NCBI GenBank assembly: GCA_017622795.1
Contig: JAGAQI010000005.1
Span: 1 to 36,933, forward strand
Direction of reading: 5' to 3'
From: Lachnospiraceae bacterium
GTDB lineage: Bacteria; Bacillota; Clostridia; Lachnospirales; Lachnospiraceae
DNA length: 36,933 nucleotides
Both the position numbers and the translations under genes were made by a program. Positions 1,539-6,656 of the stretch are shown in pieces. Positions within the stretch are counted from its first letter, which is position 1. Every line of letters starts with the position of its first letter. The notes under the pieces were generated by a model, which saw only the letters and a list, made by a program, of their open reading frames with translations, was not told the DNA's origin and did not search any database.

Positions 1539-3767
1539 TTATTTCTTCTCTTTCTTCTTTTTTACTACAATAATTCCTACCGCTGCCGCAAGCGCAATCA
1601 CTGCCGCACCAAGTAAAATAGGAATTGCTAACTTCATATCCAATCCGAAGATGCGGTTTTGCACGGCAAGACCATCATCCTGTGTAACTTCTGTACTATC
1701 GTTATCCACATCCGAATCCTGTTCTTCTGTTCCGATGCTTTCCTTCACACCAAGATTTGTACCTTTGGCTACCACAATATAATCCATCACTTCCACTTCA
1801 CCGGTGAATAAATTGTCGTTGCCGGACATTTCAAATTCCTGCAGGGCACCGTTGACATGGGTAAAGAATTTAAATTCTCCGTCAGCCTGCATAAATTCCT
1901 GTGTCACTGGGACAGTCAACAGGAAGGTATCGGTAGCGGTACCTTTATTATTAATTTTGTATACTGCCACCAAATCATTACCACCGGCTCCGATTTCGGT
2001 TTTAAACATATCATAAATCACATCTGCTTCTGTCAGTACCGTTACAGTTAAGACCGGTGCAGATACATTTTTTCCGCCGGCATATTCTGCAGTTACATAA
2101 ATTCCGGTAGCAGTATCAATGGAAGTTAAAATACCGCTCTTTTTGTAGTTGCCCTTAATGGCATTTCCCAAGGTAGATAAATCACAACCGTAGGTGCAAA
2201 CCGTGGAAGCAATTCCGTTCACCTGATTTGCCACACCAACCGAACGCATAGCAAGAATTTTAGCCAGATTCGGAAGTCCTTTTTTAACTCCGCTTGGCTG
2301 GCGGATGTTATTCATGTAATATACATTTTCTGCCAGTTCTTCCGAGGCTGCCGTAATTACATCTGCCTGCATTTTTTCCACAAAGGTATTAAAATATCCC
2401 GGATCATAGGTTTTTCCCGTGGACGCTACCGTTCCTCCGAGGGTAACCACCTTAGAACATTCCAGCATATACTCATGAAACTTCTTTATCAAAGAAGGAT
2501 TCTGATAAATAATGTTAAACAACGGAAAATCTGCATAAACTTCTGCAGACACCTGCTTTTCTTCATCGATCCGTCCGTAATCGATACGGTACATGACATC
2601 TAACGGAAAGTTTGCGGTGTTTTCCGCACTGCTCGGATAAAAACAACCAAAGCTTAAATCATAATCCCACGGAACCAGGACTGCCTTTCCGTTTTTGTCC
2701 ACATACAAGCCAAAGTTTTTCTGGCCGTCAAACATATTGTCTATCTGACACAGCCAGCTGTGCACCGCAAAGTATTTTACCACTTCCTCCGTATCCAGTA
2801 CCTGATTCACCAGTTCCAAATACTCGCTGCTGTTCACATCTACCGCCTGACCGTTAAAATCCAGACCATTACTTAGAAAATTGATACGGCGCACCCACTC
2901 GGTTACGGTAGGAATCATATCCTCCACATCCTTTAAGGTGTCCTCATCCTGCTCCCAAAGAAGGGAAGGGTCTGCTTCAATTTCCTCATATAAAAATCTG
3001 GTTCCTTCCGGTTTGCAAAGATAGCTGGAAAGCTCATCTTTATCCACACCGTAATAACGTTCCAAAATGGAGTGGTCCATGGCCTCCACCATAGCGTACA
3101 CACCATAGTAATTATCATTGATATAAAGCTTTGCCAAACCATACTCCGGGGTTGGAAGTCCCATTTCGTCCATCAGCTTTAAAGCAAAAAATTCCTTCAT
3201 CATGGTTTTATCAAAGAAGAAATTATTAAAACTGATTTTATCGCAGCCAAAGAAGTTCTGCTTCTTGCCGTAATCCTTTTTCTTAATATATTTACCGAAG
3301 TTGATGGTAAAAGAAAAACGGTCACTGCCCGGGTTTTCCGTAACGGAATGCTCCAGGGTATAGCTTCCCTTGGTACGCAGACCGCAGTAGCCCAAGGTTG
3401 CATCGCCGATGGTAACACTGGTTGTCATAACATACGGTTCATCCGCTGCATTTTGTAATAAGTAATTCAGATTGTTTTCTTCTATTGTGATACGTACTTC
3501 CTGAATCTCCTCTGCAAGAAAATAGGCAGAGTAATCTCCCTGTTCCGCTTTACCCTGAGTGGCATCATTCACCTGATAATCCGCCGGCGGGGTATTGTTT
3601 ACCATATCTTCTGTAATCCACTCCGCAGCGGTACCGTGGGTGATTTTCTTTTCCTCATCTCCGCCTGTTACCTCATCTGCAAAAGCACAGTAAGGTGCCG
3701 TCAGACCAAGAAGCAAAGCACCTAAAAGTACACCGCAACAGCCTTTTTTTATTTTACTCCGTTTCAT
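1539..3767 (-). CDS. CotH kinase family protein, secreted and membrane-anchored
   Basis: About 742 residues from an ATG at 3767, chosen over an upstream in-frame ATG (3806) because AAGGAG sits seven bases before it. The N-terminus is a signal peptide (MKRSKIKKG, hydrophobic stretch, cleavage near AFA-DE). Residues about 85-400 match the CotH kinase fold: an N-terminal beta part with GLRTKGSYT, the segment ISFNNFFFDKTMMKEF, LYINDNYYGVYAMVEAMD, and the WDYDLSFG signature near residues 367-374 that holds metal-binding aspartates in known CotH kinases. The C-terminus has one membrane helix followed by KKKKEKK, so the kinase domain should face outside the membrane. CotH of Bacillus phosphorylates spore coat proteins; other clostridial CotH proteins are cell-surface proteins of unknown target. 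The start overlaps the end of the PHP gene by 14 bases, suggesting translational coupling. Confidence 0.85.
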   Translation of the reverse strand: MKRSKIKKGCCGVLLGALLLGLTAPYCAFADEVTGGDEEKKITHGTAAEWITEDMVNNTPPADYQVNDATQGKAEQGDYSAYFLAEEIQEVRITIEENNLNYLLQNAADEPYVMTTSVTIGDATLGYCGLRTKGSYTLEHSVTENPGSDRFSFTINFGKYIKKKDYGKKQNFFGCDKISFNNFFFDKTMMKEFFALKLMDEMGLPTPEYGLAKLYINDNYYGVYAMVEAMDHSILERYYGVDKDELSSYLCKPEGTRFLYEEIEADPSLLWEQDEDTLKDVEDMIPTVTEWVRRINFLSNGLDFNGQAVDVNSSEYLELVNQVLDTEEVVKYFAVHSWLCQIDNMFDGQKNFGLYVDKNGKAVLVPWDYDLSFGCFYPSSAENTANFPLDVMYRIDYGRIDEEKQVSAEVYADFPLFNIIYQNPSLIKKFHEYMLECSKVVTLGGTVASTGKTYDPGYFNTFVEKMQADVITAASEELAENVYYMNNIRQPSGVKKGLPNLAKILAMRSVGVANQVNGIASTVCTYGCDLSTLGNAIKGNYKKSGILTSIDTATGIYVTAEYAGGKNVSAPVLTVTVLTEADVIYDMFKTEIGAGGNDLVAVYKINNKGTATDTFLLTVPVTQEFMQADGEFKFFTHVNGALQEFEMSGNDNLFTGEVEVMDYIVVAKGTNLGVKESIGTEEQDSDVDNDSTEVTQDDGLAVQNRIFGLDMKLAIPILLGAAVIALAAAVGIIVVKKKKEKK

Positions 3768-4500
3768 TTTCCTGCTCCTTTTTCTTTCGAATTTCAAAGT
3801 AGTCAATCGGTGTTCCTTCTCTGTGAAGAACCGCCTTCATGTAATCTTTCACATCGGTCAGCGGACGTTCAAATGCCATACCGCCATACAACAAGTTCAC
3901 GCTGTGAATGTCGGAACCGCCGGTATACGGCAGATTATATTTTTCCGCATATTCCTTAGCCTGTACATCATACATGGTGCGGCCGTCTTCTTCCCGTACT
4001 TTTTTGCCATAGTGAGAGGCATTAAAGATTTCCACGCCGTCCACATAGTCCGGGTACAAACGGACTTCCGGGATATACCAGGCTTCACGGTACGGATGCG
4101 CCTGAATCACCATACCACCGTCTTTATGTACCAGTTCATATTGCTCTTCTACCGATATTTCACGAAGCTCCGGATGCTGCTTCATCCATTCTTTATCTAA
4201 TCCGTAAATCAGAAAATCAGACCCCTGATAGGACTCTTCCCAGCCAAAAAACACTTGCAAACCGATATTATCTCCGGCTGCTTTGGCATTTTCATATCCC
4301 TTACAAAAGGCATCTACCCACTCTTCCCACGGAAGTTCCCGCGGAATCGCACAATTCCCCCGGAAGAAATGGTCCGTTACCATAACGCCGGTATATCCTG
4401 CTGCTTTGTACGCCCGTACCAGTTCTTCTGCGGTGTTTTGGGAACATGCACTGGCCTCTTTGGTATGCAGATGTGTTTCATACAAATATAATCTATCCAT
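3754..4500 (-). CDS. PHP-domain metal-dependent hydrolase
   Basis: 248 residues. The beginning LYLYETHLHTKEASAC carries the HxH metal motif of the PHP (polymerase and histidinol phosphatase) family, followed by GVMVTDHF (second metal ligand region), QAHPYRE in the middle and GGSDIHS near the end, so the usual metal-binding His/Asp/Glu set appears to be kept. PHP proteins hydrolyse phosphoesters (histidinol phosphate, nucleotides, oligonucleotide ends); the substrate here is unknown. It is the first gene of the operon with the CotH-like kinase and the NhaC antiporter. Its own promoter lies just upstream at about 4541-4549. A phosphoesterase next to an extracytoplasmic kinase is suggestive, but this protein has no signal peptide and should be cytoplasmic. 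Confidence 0.85.
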   Translation of the reverse strand: MDRLYLYETHLHTKEASACSQNTAEELVRAYKAAGYTGVMVTDHFFRGNCAIPRELPWEEWVDAFCKGYENAKAAGDNIGLQVFFGWEESYQGSDFLIYGLDKEWMKQHPELREISVEEQYELVHKDGGMVIQAHPYREAWYIPEVRLYPDYVDGVEIFNASHYGKKVREEDGRTMYDVQAKEYAEKYNLPYTGGSDIHSVNLLYGGMAFERPLTDVKDYMKAVLHREGTPIDYFEIRKKKEQENETE

Positions 4501-4540
4501 AAAGTACCTTCCTTCCGGTTACAATTTTCGCACAATGTTC

Positions 4541-4587: not shown

Positions 4588-4643
4588 CGAAAAACAACAA
4601 TAGGCCGCTGTGACCTTTGAGTAAAAGTCACAACAGCCTATTG
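4588..4643 (-). terminator. Rho-independent terminator of the hydrolase gene
   Basis: The arms CAATAGGC (4598-4605) and GCCTATTG (4636-4643), extended inward by CTGTGAC / GTCACAACAG with one bulge, form a strong stem. On the minus strand it is followed by TTGTTTTTC. It lies about 35 bases after the stop codon of the hydrolase gene at 4676 and separates that gene from the PHP operon. Confidence 0.85.
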
Positions 4644-4675
4644 CCGTGCTTTTATAATTTGAATAGGATTGGGGT

Positions 4676-5197
4676 TTACTGTTTCATTGCTGCGTGGTAC
4701 AGCATCTCGTCCAGACGTTCTTCCGTCCAGCGGTAAATACTTTGGAACGCTTCTTTCTTTTTTTCTTTTAAACCTGATATTTTTAAAGTAGGAATATCAC
4801 TCGTAATGTTTTGCGGATTCTGTCTGGTATCTGCAAATACAAGTCCTTCCACCGCCTCCGGATATGCTGTTACAAACGCATGTACCGGAACCGCTCCTTG
4901 GGAAAGCCCTAACAGCAAATACGGTATATCCGGATACTTGCGTTTTACATTATGGAAGCAGGTACCGATTGCCTCTTCCATCTGACTGACCTCCATAATA
5001 TCCGGGCAACAACTGTCGATTACCGCAAATCCATGTTCCTTAAAATATTCTGCCAGCTCTTCCTGACAGCTTTCTGCCGTTTCCCTGCTTTGAAAAATAT
5101 GAAGAACTGCCTTTGGTTCCCCCTCCGGAACCCATTCTACCGCACGCATCCTTGCTTTTCTTTTTGCAGAAGAATCATCAAGTTCCTTTTTCATCAT
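4676..5197 (-). CDS. Shortened lysophospholipase-like alpha/beta hydrolase
   Basis: 173 residues from ATG 5197, chosen because GAAGAAGG stands nine bases upstream; an in-frame upstream start at 5227 has none. After a basic N-terminus, the segment VEWVPEGEPKAVLHIF resembles the first strands of S33-type lysophospholipases/monoacylglycerol lipases, and PYLLLGLSQGA is a nucleophile elbow (GxSxG, Ser in GLSQG). However, the HG oxyanion motif and DHRGHG motif normally found in that family are absent, the cap domain is missing, and the protein ends after about 173 instead of roughly 270-310 residues, with only one late His (YHAAMKQ). It may have a narrow role, be inactive, or be a decaying copy. 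It is the only gene behind a cyclic-di-GMP-I riboswitch and transcription terminator, and has its own terminator downstream. Confidence 0.6.
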   Translation of the reverse strand: MMKKELDDSSAKRKARMRAVEWVPEGEPKAVLHIFQSRETAESCQEELAEYFKEHGFAVIDSCCPDIMEVSQMEEAIGTCFHNVKRKYPDIPYLLLGLSQGAVPVHAFVTAYPEAVEGLVFADTRQNPQNITSDIPTLKISGLKEKKKEAFQSIYRWTEERLDEMLYHAAMKQ

Positions 5198-5260
5198 GAT
5201 ATCTAACCTTCTTCCTTGTAACAACACAATAACAAAAGCTTATGAGAATTGTTTGGGGAA

Positions 5261-5295
5261 ATAAAAAAGCACTATCCATCATAGGACAGTGCTTT
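5261..5295 (-). terminator. Riboswitch-associated intrinsic terminator
   Basis: Minus-strand AAAGCACTGTCC, a short loop and GGATAGTGCTTT form a stem with a single mismatch, followed directly by TTTTTTATTT. It lies between the c-di-GMP-I aptamer and the start of the hydrolase gene, the arrangement of a transcription-attenuating expression platform. It would also end transcripts reading through from the CE2 esterase gene. Confidence 0.88.
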
Positions 5296-5299
5296 GCTC

Positions 5300-5382
5300 T
5301 TGTAATTCGTGCAACTGGCTGCCATTTTACAGGCCCTTTAGCTTTGCGTCACAGCTTTTCAACTGCTTTGCCCTATGTAGTT
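5300..5382 (-). promoter_or_regulatory. Cyclic-di-GMP-I riboswitch (GEMM-I) aptamer
   Basis: Read on the minus strand, this spacer shows the conserved core of the GEMM-I class: AGGGCAAAG, a helix CAGTT-GAAA-AGCTG capped by a GNRA tetraloop, the hallmark GACGCAAAGC, then AAAGGGCCT ... ATGGCAGCCAGTTGC, which corresponds to the tetraloop-receptor arm and the 3' end of the aptamer; GCAA at the start pairs with TTGC at the end. It has its own promoter just upstream and is followed about five bases later by an intrinsic terminator, then about 65 bases later by the hydrolase start codon. Cyclic di-GMP binding would be expected to change terminator formation; whether it is an on- or off-switch cannot be decided by eye. 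Confidence 0.85.
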
Positions 5383-5384
5383 TG

Positions 5385-5413
5385 ATTATATCGCCGCCAC
5401 CCAAGTTTTTCCA
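5385..5413 (-). promoter_or_regulatory. Promoter of the riboswitch-hydrolase transcript
   Basis: Minus-strand TATAAT (5385-5390) with a TGGAAA -35-like box (5408-5413) exactly 17 bases upstream. The predicted start site falls a few bases before the aptamer core, so the riboswitch can be the 5' leader of its own transcript rather than only a readthrough product of the esterase gene. Confidence 0.65.
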
Positions 5414-5438
5414 TAGGTCTTTGGACTCATCCCGCCGG

Positions 5439-6656
5439 TTACCAGCCCATAACTTCTTTTATCTTCTTTGCCAGCTTTTCCGCTGCTTTTTCATGAGTCT
5501 TTTCCGATGGATGCCAGTCTGCTGCAATACCGTCCGCCATGCTTTGGGCATCAAACTTCATCGCATGCACTTTACTGTCGGCAGTCTCCTTTACATATTG
5601 CTCCACCGCGTCTTCCACGCAGGAATACAAGTCTGCACCCATGATGCCAAGGGTAGCAAAAATAACCGCATCCGGGTTCTTTTCTCTTATCTGTTTTAAG
5701 AAGTTCACATATTCCGCCGTAAATTCCTGTTTTTTCGCAGCATCATTTTTTACGTAACTGGCATCATTGGTACCAAGATTGATTACTATCACATCCGGCT
5801 GACGCTTTGTAAAATCCCAGTCGGTTTCCTGGGCTATGAAATTACCCAGATAAGTTCCTCCGGAATTACCCATTTTACTGTAATAGTCAGGTACCAGCTG
5901 TTCTGCCTGTTTCTTTCCGTCACCGGAGTACCCGGAAATGATTCCGTATCCGCTGAAGGAAACCAAACTGTAATCCGCACCCAGCTTTTCTGCGGTTTTA
6001 TAAGCATAAGTTTTGGTTGCATCTTCGGTTGTTGTAGAAAAATGATGGCTGGAATCCAGGTCATCCACACCATAGCCGCAGGTAATGGAATCTCCCACGA
6101 ATTCTATCAGCGTATCCTTCTGTCCGGTTGGCTTAATGTCGCCGATACAGGTAGCTTCCACGGAACTGATGCCAAAGGTGGAATACGGTGCCTCGGAAAG
6201 CTTTACCACGCGTACGATATATTCTTTTGGTGTATCACTTTCACATACGGTATACACCTTTTCCATTTTATCCACCATATCATCCACGACGCGTTCCCCA
6301 TTGACATAAATGGCAACTCTGGCCTGGTTATTTCTGGTCATAAAGCTGCTGTCCGGTTTCAGTTTTATGGTTGCCCGGGTTCCGGTAAAGGTAAATTCCA
6401 TGCCGGTACCGGAATGTACCAGCCACAGCGTATCTTTTGCCTGCATGGTTCTTCCGATCGGACGGACAAATTCTTCCGTCGGAAGGAATGCTTTATCACT
6501 CGGGGTGGTTTCCGGTGTCGGGGTAGGAGTAGCCACCGGTGTTTCAGTTGCAACAGGAATATTGTCATTTTCCGGGTTCTCCGTCGTTTTACTTCCACAA
6601 CCGGAAAAAGTGCAAATCAAAACAGCTGTAAGTAAACCAAATACTATCTTTTTCAT
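5439..6656 (-). CDS. CE2-type carbohydrate esterase lipoprotein (SGNH fold)
   Basis: 405 residues. It begins with a lipoprotein signal peptide ending in the lipobox FSGC (Cys20), then a Thr/Pro linker (PVATPTPTPETTPSD). Residues about 65-175 look like the jelly-roll domain of carbohydrate esterase family 2, and from about 183 the SGNH esterase domain follows: FVGDSITCGYG with the nucleophile Ser190, NLGTNDAS (block III) and ADWHPSEKTH near the C-terminus with the catalytic Asp/His. CE2 enzymes remove acetyl groups from xylan or mannan. The protein should be tethered to the outer face of the membrane. It lies after a GH5 glycosidase gene on the same strand but has its own promoter and is separated from GH5 by a terminator. 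The gene ends just before the c-di-GMP riboswitch promoter. Confidence 0.85.
   Translation of the reverse strand: MKKIVFGLLTAVLICTFSGCGSKTTENPENDNIPVATETPVATPTPTPETTPSDKAFLPTEEFVRPIGRTMQAKDTLWLVHSGTGMEFTFTGTRATIKLKPDSSFMTRNNQARVAIYVNGERVVDDMVDKMEKVYTVCESDTPKEYIVRVVKLSEAPYSTFGISSVEATCIGDIKPTGQKDTLIEFVGDSITCGYGVDDLDSSHHFSTTTEDATKTYAYKTAEKLGADYSLVSFSGYGIISGYSGDGKKQAEQLVPDYYSKMGNSGGTYLGNFIAQETDWDFTKRQPDVIVINLGTNDASYVKNDAAKKQEFTAEYVNFLKQIREKNPDAVIFATLGIMGADLYSCVEDAVEQYVKETADSKVHAMKFDAQSMADGIAADWHPSEKTHEKAAEKLAKKIKEVMGW

Follow-up and report, generated by a model that had tools for sequence, protein, structure and literature searches.

Among the closest described relatives of the riboswitch analyzed here is Cd1 of the C. 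difficile flagellar operon, a c-di-GMP-I (GEMM-I) switch that acts on transcription and the terminator of which can coexist with the ligand-bound aptamer (excerpts of PMC9262584 and PMC11477304). According to the excerpts of PMC9262584, the Cd1 antiterminator consists of the strands T, A and H, of which A is the aptamer-stabilizing strand that pairs with the 5' strand, and its formation requires the loss of ligand binding, which makes Cd1 an OFF switch; the nucleotide at the binding pocket is regarded there as a selectivity factor and not as a hard filter. Also in C. difficile, five targets annotated as 'small hypothetical protein' and one orphan c-di-GMP-I riboswitch are mentioned in the excerpts of PMC11477304. 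The window, by which we mean the whole analyzed stretch of 36,933 bases, comes from an uncultured gut bacterium of the Lachnospiraceae (G000; 3.23-Mb assembly, 147 contigs, 86.6% complete), and with moderate confidence we read its riboswitch locus as a GEMM-I transcriptional OFF switch on a one-gene unit, the target of which would be a truncated, dead hydrolase that is being lost in the genus and is probably a leftover.

The aptamer is a c-di-GMP-I aptamer of the 76-nt short-P3 form and lies at 5307..5382 on the minus strand. The original prediction had assigned it to the GEMM-I class and had named a covariance-model search of the minus strand as a check, and both hold, as the Rfam model RF01051, for which the gathering score is 35, matches over its full length (1-87) at 5382..5307 (-) with 58 bits (E 5.6e-9) and is the sole Rfam match at the gathering threshold across the window. 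All core pairs can be formed (17/17), the GAAA tetraloop and the paired core are present, and the pocket position (G20 of Vc2) is a G within GGGCAAA. An A in place of this G is the mark typical of cGAMP-sensing GEMM-I variants; in a survey of 116 Lachnospiraceae GEMM-I sites, an A was found at the pocket in 13, and 8 fit no pattern. The A-pocket sites have the forms TAGCAAA, AAGCAAA and GAGCAAA. A long P3 with a tetraloop receptor is one of the marks of GEMM-I; the P3 of the window is short (CCTGTAAAATGG), and aptamers of at most 77 nt account for 21 of the 116 sites, which had deliberately been enriched for the 76-nt class. Sites were picked by bit score and for this class among the matches listed, most tandem duplicates and some contig-edge sites being skipped, and the counts are thus not those of a random sample. 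At the level of the sequence the RNA is a genuine GEMM-I riboswitch, and binding of c-di-GMP can be expected.

The original prediction had further claimed a sigma-A promoter and an intrinsic terminator inside 5258-5415, and such sites are present there. The promoter-like site TGGAAA-17-TATAAT (5385..5413, minus strand) agrees with the consensus at 10 of 12 positions and ends 2 bases before the aptamer match; promoter-like matches in the scanned stretch are near the shuffle expectation (4 versus a mean of 2.9), and the sister copy in the related genome G003 has TTGACG-17-TATAAT (11/12) at the same place. The intrinsic terminator (5258..5295, minus strand) has a 12-pair stem at 5295..5266, a T-rich tail and -18.0 kcal/mol, and terminator-like matches exceed the shuffle expectation (9, several of them overlapping variants, versus a mean of 1.2). 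A ribosome-binding-site-like AAGGAAGAAGG, read directly from the sequence, is found at 5207..5217 (-), followed by a single ORF of 173 aa (4676..5197, minus strand, ATG at 5197) and a second terminator of 20 pairs at 4597..4644 (-) that was found by the terminator scan, and the unit therefore appears to contain only one gene, the lipase-like gene that had been named as the single target. Outside of the unit, a CE2-type esterase is encoded upstream (5439..6656, minus strand; CE2_N and Lipase_GDSL_2 above the cut-offs), and a PHP-domain protein downstream (3754..4500, minus strand), beyond which lie a CotH-family gene and an antiporter, in an order that is the same in the related genomes G001 and G003. 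The pair of the CotH-family gene (1539-3806) and the upstream PHP-domain gene (3754-4500) is conserved in both of these genomes, and the nearest named records of the PHP protein are from Lachnospiraceae assemblies of water deer rectum (76% and 69% identity). The riboswitch-hydrolase cassette is bracketed by an 8-base direct repeat, GTAACCGG, at 4515-4522 and 5435-5442. G001 has a single similar junction, and the cassette may thus have been inserted or deleted precisely.

For the switching, the 5' strand of the aptamer, CAUAGGGCA (5369..5377, minus strand), which includes the pocket G, is the proposed antiterminator strand, and its predicted partner is the complementary UGUCCUAUG (5280..5288, minus strand), which is part of the 5' arm and the loop of the terminator. 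At low c-di-GMP the two strands would pair, the terminator would be blocked by this pairing, and the gene would be read. At high c-di-GMP the ligand-bound aptamer would keep GGGCA in its core, the terminator arm would be free, and transcription would stop before the gene, so that a unit of one gene would be switched OFF at the level of transcription. As the aptamer strand that pairs with the terminator arm includes the pocket G, an OFF switch is predicted, and c-di-GMP OFF is the most likely direction in the folding model, with ligand binding presupposed. The genus has six GEMM-I sites over the cut-off, four of which (window, G003a, G003b and G003c) were folded in stages with a model that works without ligand, kinetics and tertiary contacts; the other two, on contig C45 of the host and in G002, were covered by the comparison of terminators and segments only. 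In the intermediate transcript, which reaches to the end of the 5' arm and loop of the terminator, the 5' strand is predicted to pair with the arm in 4/4 copies (in the window nt 6-14, probability 0.82-1.0), and in the full-length transcript of the four copies this pairing is gone and the terminator is formed. When the aptamer core is forced in the full transcript, the terminator still forms in 4/4, at a cost of 3.1-3.8 kcal/mol; in G003c, 16/17 core pairs are formable. A terminator together with a competing antiterminator that is made with the aptamer, as expected for an OFF switch of the Cd1 type, is hence predicted for this locus.

Of 71 aptamer 5' segments, the own segment of the window is the best partner for its arm (-17.6 kcal/mol), and the 66 segments from outside the genus reach a mean of -6.7 and a minimum of -15.4 kcal/mol with the same arm. 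Among the 71, the own 5' segment ranks 2 in G003b, 8 in G003a and 14 in G003c. In the wider set, terminators were looked for at 113 of the 116 GEMM-I sites and found at 71, and over these 71 sites the mean rank percentile of the own segment is 0.49 for the 5' and 0.37 for the 3' strand, with the own segment in the top three ranks in 9/71 for either strand (about 3 expected; the nine of the 5' strand include related copies). A 5'-strand antiterminator as a rule for all GEMM-I sites is rejected with this mean percentile of 0.49, and what the data hint at is that some GEMM-I switches have an antiterminator made with the 5' strand (pocket strand). The arm of the contig C45 site gives only -3.3 kcal/mol with its own 5' strand (rank 29), and at the G002 site a terminator was looked for and none was found. 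At the site on contig C45 (L061:5602-5677), the best partner of the arm is the 3' strand of its own aptamer, with rank 0 of 71.

The target protein was predicted to be a 173-residue lysophospholipase-like product with a GLSQG elbow and without the HG and DHRGHG motifs, and this description was correct. It matches Hydrolase_4 (PF12146) in Pfam with 24.9 bits, which is under the cut-off of 27 (E 1.4e-5). In 23 full-length relatives of 309-359 aa, the catalytic Ser, Asp and His columns are conserved in 23/23 and the HG histidine in 22/23, and the window protein has S, E, a gap and Q at the Ser, Asp, His and HG columns, respectively. The nucleophile elbow GxSxG is thus kept as GLSQG, and in the alignment with these relatives the DHxGHG motif and the cap region are absent; an HG string (EHGF) does occur in the protein, but elsewhere in the alignment, outside the HG column. 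The profile of the relatives matches in the pieces 2-61 and 99-149 and in a weak C-terminal piece, 293-309. A structure model from the single sequence has a mean pLDDT of 46 and is too poor for a fold search. The protein therefore appears to be a truncated derivative of a lysophospholipase-like hydrolase that is probably catalytically dead.

Such a target is rare. The hydrolase profile matches only the sites of the window and of G003b among 114 ORFs downstream of GEMM-I (0/112 of the others), in a search in which some ORFs were partly masked and the G003c site was left out. In a Lachnospiraceae sample, 48 of 397 genomes match the hydrolase at E<=1e-5, and only the genome of the window has a short frame, the open frames of the other 47 being 281-530 aa long; G003 and G001 are not among the rows of these samples, and riboswitches were checked at the best matches only. 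With Rfam and about 1.5 kb on each side, 1 of 38 hydrolase loci has a GEMM-I (1/20 and 0/18), and this one is G003. A general association of GEMM-I with the hydrolase family is rejected by these 1/38 loci and 2/114 downstream ORFs. The commonest downstream families in Pfam (best 25 of 87 families) are CAP with 12, PAS_3 and PAS_9 with 7 each, and GGDEF and transglutaminase with 5 each, counted in 98 ORFs from 110 loci, since 12 loci were dropped for masked bases (5), for the lack of an ORF (1) or for an ORF more than 700 nt away (6). The literature search gave no relevant paper on a c-di-GMP riboswitch with a hydrolase or lipase as downstream gene among the best matches listed, and for c-di-GMP riboswitches in Lachnospiraceae only a C. 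difficile biofilm review was found. The target had been called unusual, and this is right for the hydrolase, but a GEMM-I before a small protein is nothing unusual in view of the C. difficile targets in the excerpts of PMC11477304. The riboswitch class is known, and the target is lineage-specific and probably decaying.

The host has 29 GGDEF matches, of which at least three are duplicates, and four flagellin matches, and therefore c-di-GMP signaling as well as motility can be expected. The coordinates of paired matches on its contig C8 sum to 265,007, which looks like one long inverted duplication. This duplication is probably an assembly artifact, and domain counts of this genome are inflated. 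Its one other GEMM-I over the cut-off, on contig C45, precedes an ORF of 1448 aa with a signal-peptide-like start. In the sister genome G003, the same riboswitch is found before the same gene, with only 1 of 68 positions differing between the window and G003b over the part of the aptamer from AGGGC onwards, but the gene is frame-broken there. Hydrolase homology in G003 is clear in two frames and weak in a third (score 0.5), which gives one clear frame change and probably a second one; the homology ends at 145 save for a very weak piece, and the profile of the relatives found no recognizable cap or Asp region. Two further GEMM-I of G003 exceed the cut-off; both precede chemoreceptor-like genes, and one of the two lies directly upstream of the riboswitch-hydrolase pair. 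The chemoreceptor-like paralogs are 65% identical, and each has its own closely similar GEMM-I (L059:1866-1941 and L063:1501-1576), which suggests that the riboswitch may have been duplicated within the genus. G001 is closer to the host than G003 (antiporter identity to the window 97% versus 86%), and there the CE2 gene directly adjoins the PHP gene, the riboswitch and the hydrolase are both lacking, and Rfam has no match in the stretch between CE2 and PHP. In the whole G001 genome no hydrolase match was found at E<=0.001, and the best GEMM-I is sub-threshold with 22.9 bits; as this genome is 78% complete, the absence elsewhere is weaker than that at the locus. In G002, a single GEMM-I exceeds the cut-off and precedes a long ORF, and no hydrolase match was found in this genome. 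The original prediction had proposed to look for the same pair in related genomes, where a pseudogene would speak against it: the pair does recur in G003 but is missing at the G001 locus, and while the gene is broken or absent in these two, the frame of the window itself is open and coding-like. In the simplest history, the common ancestor of G000 and G003 would already have had the pair, which then was lost by deletion from G001, broke in G003 and shrank in G000.

Other explanations concern the direction of the switch, its target and the function of the protein. Forcing the core does not abolish the predicted flank pairing CAUAGG:CCUAUG in the intermediate transcript of the window, and similar flank pairing is left in G003b, so that aptamer and antiterminator in the window are predicted not to exclude each other absolutely. 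This would suit an ON switch, in which the 5' flank pairs with the terminator loop, closes the ligand-bound aptamer and thereby blocks the terminator, but the flank helix uses the pocket G, it is absent in G003a, where mostly the conserved core GGGCAA that the folded or bound aptamer requires is complementary to the arm, and the formation of the terminator in all four full transcripts with forced core is as in the OFF switch Cd1 (excerpts of PMC9262584); an ON switch is improbable. The real target could also be the downstream cluster of PHP, CotH and antiporter, reached by read-through, with the hydrolase as mere leader sequence. G000 and G003 share the gene order hydrolase-PHP-CotH-antiporter, a sense-strand scan of G003 found no terminator-like site in the stretch that separates the broken gene from PHP, and secreted or surface-type proteins are among the sampled GEMM-I targets, but the window has the 20-pair terminator after the hydrolase gene and G001 keeps the cluster without the riboswitch, and we regard read-through to this cluster as very improbable. 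That an active minimal lipase or lysophospholipase joins c-di-GMP to lipid or surface metabolism, as had been assumed originally, is barely credible in view of the sequence: the kept elbow and the similarity to Hydrolase_4 (E 1.4e-5) speak for it, but with the catalytic Asp and His, the oxyanion HG and the cap all missing, this candidate is rejected. The gene is disappearing from the genus, which makes it a probable leftover and not a c-di-GMP route to lipid metabolism.

More serious, if still unlikely, is a maintained non-catalytic pseudoenzyme, an alpha/beta core without cap that has a real role under c-di-GMP control and was lost only in G003 and G001. The ORF is open over 173 codons with the ribosome-binding-site-like sequence before its ATG, and its codon use of 0.195 per codon is within that of real genes (101 real windows: mean 0.254, minimum 0.114, 13% below the ORF; 501 off-frame windows: maximum 0.099). 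Differences between window and G003 favor the third codon position (32/26/56 over 91 codons), with a dN of 0.42 and a dS of 2.58, but dS has reached saturation, and a large part of the divergence may be older than the truncation. According to the alignment, the losses in the window gene keep the frame. Homology to the profile ends at nearly the same place, 149 in the window and 145 in G003, and is followed in both by a shared 29-nt tail (score 36 versus at most 31 in 1000 shuffles), which suggests an old, lasting truncation and hints that the shortening may be older than the species split, but the tail is A-rich, and its window stretch resembles also the SGxxD region of full-length enzymes, which is a difficulty for reading it as shared. 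Against a maintained role, furthermore, the gene has a broken frame in G003 and is missing from the G001 locus, it changes faster than its neighbors (47% versus 64-86% identity between window and G003), no other short-frame match was found among the 48 matching genomes of the 397 sampled, and the single-sequence model is poor (pLDDT 46). A combined version, with the pocket-strand antiterminator of an OFF switch controlling a pseudoenzyme without cap and triad that was truncated before the two species split and kept as a small non-catalytic protein, is doubtful. The good preservation of the RNA suggests that the target mattered until recently, which is a point against decay, but altogether a decaying or leftover gene is more likely than a maintained pseudoenzyme.

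With a decaying target, the locus is a case of a regulatory RNA that is kept intact while its target gene erodes, and the three related genomes represent three states of this target, shortened but open, frame-broken, and absent. The claim of regulation is sound as far as the nucleotides tell, that of a functional minimal hydrolase through which c-di-GMP would act on lipid metabolism is not, and the locus argues against a c-di-GMP control of lipid metabolism here.

In comparison with known systems, the window resembles Cd1 in the class of its riboswitch, in its action on transcription, in a terminator that is compatible with the folded aptamer, and in the proposed OFF logic (excerpts of PMC9262584 and PMC11477304), but its antiterminator is predicted to use the 5' strand, which carries the pocket G, and its target is a probably decaying hydrolase in place of flagellar genes. 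The GEMM-I riboswitches of the G003 chemoreceptors have closely similar 76-nt aptamers, the same kind of terminator and the same 5'-strand pairing, but their targets are intact proteins of the methyl-accepting-chemotaxis type, as judged by sequence reading and mutual similarity. Compared with the lysophospholipase- or monoacylglycerol-lipase-like enzymes of Hydrolase_4, the window protein can be aligned in the N-terminal part and in the Ser-elbow region, but it has only about half of their length, lacks the cap, Asp, His and HG, and stays under the Pfam cut-off. Like the orphan and small-ORF c-di-GMP-I riboswitches of C. difficile, which according to the excerpts of PMC11477304 have no obvious functional target or only a small ORF, the riboswitch of the window precedes a small ORF, but in this case its ancestry can be traced to a full-length enzyme family.
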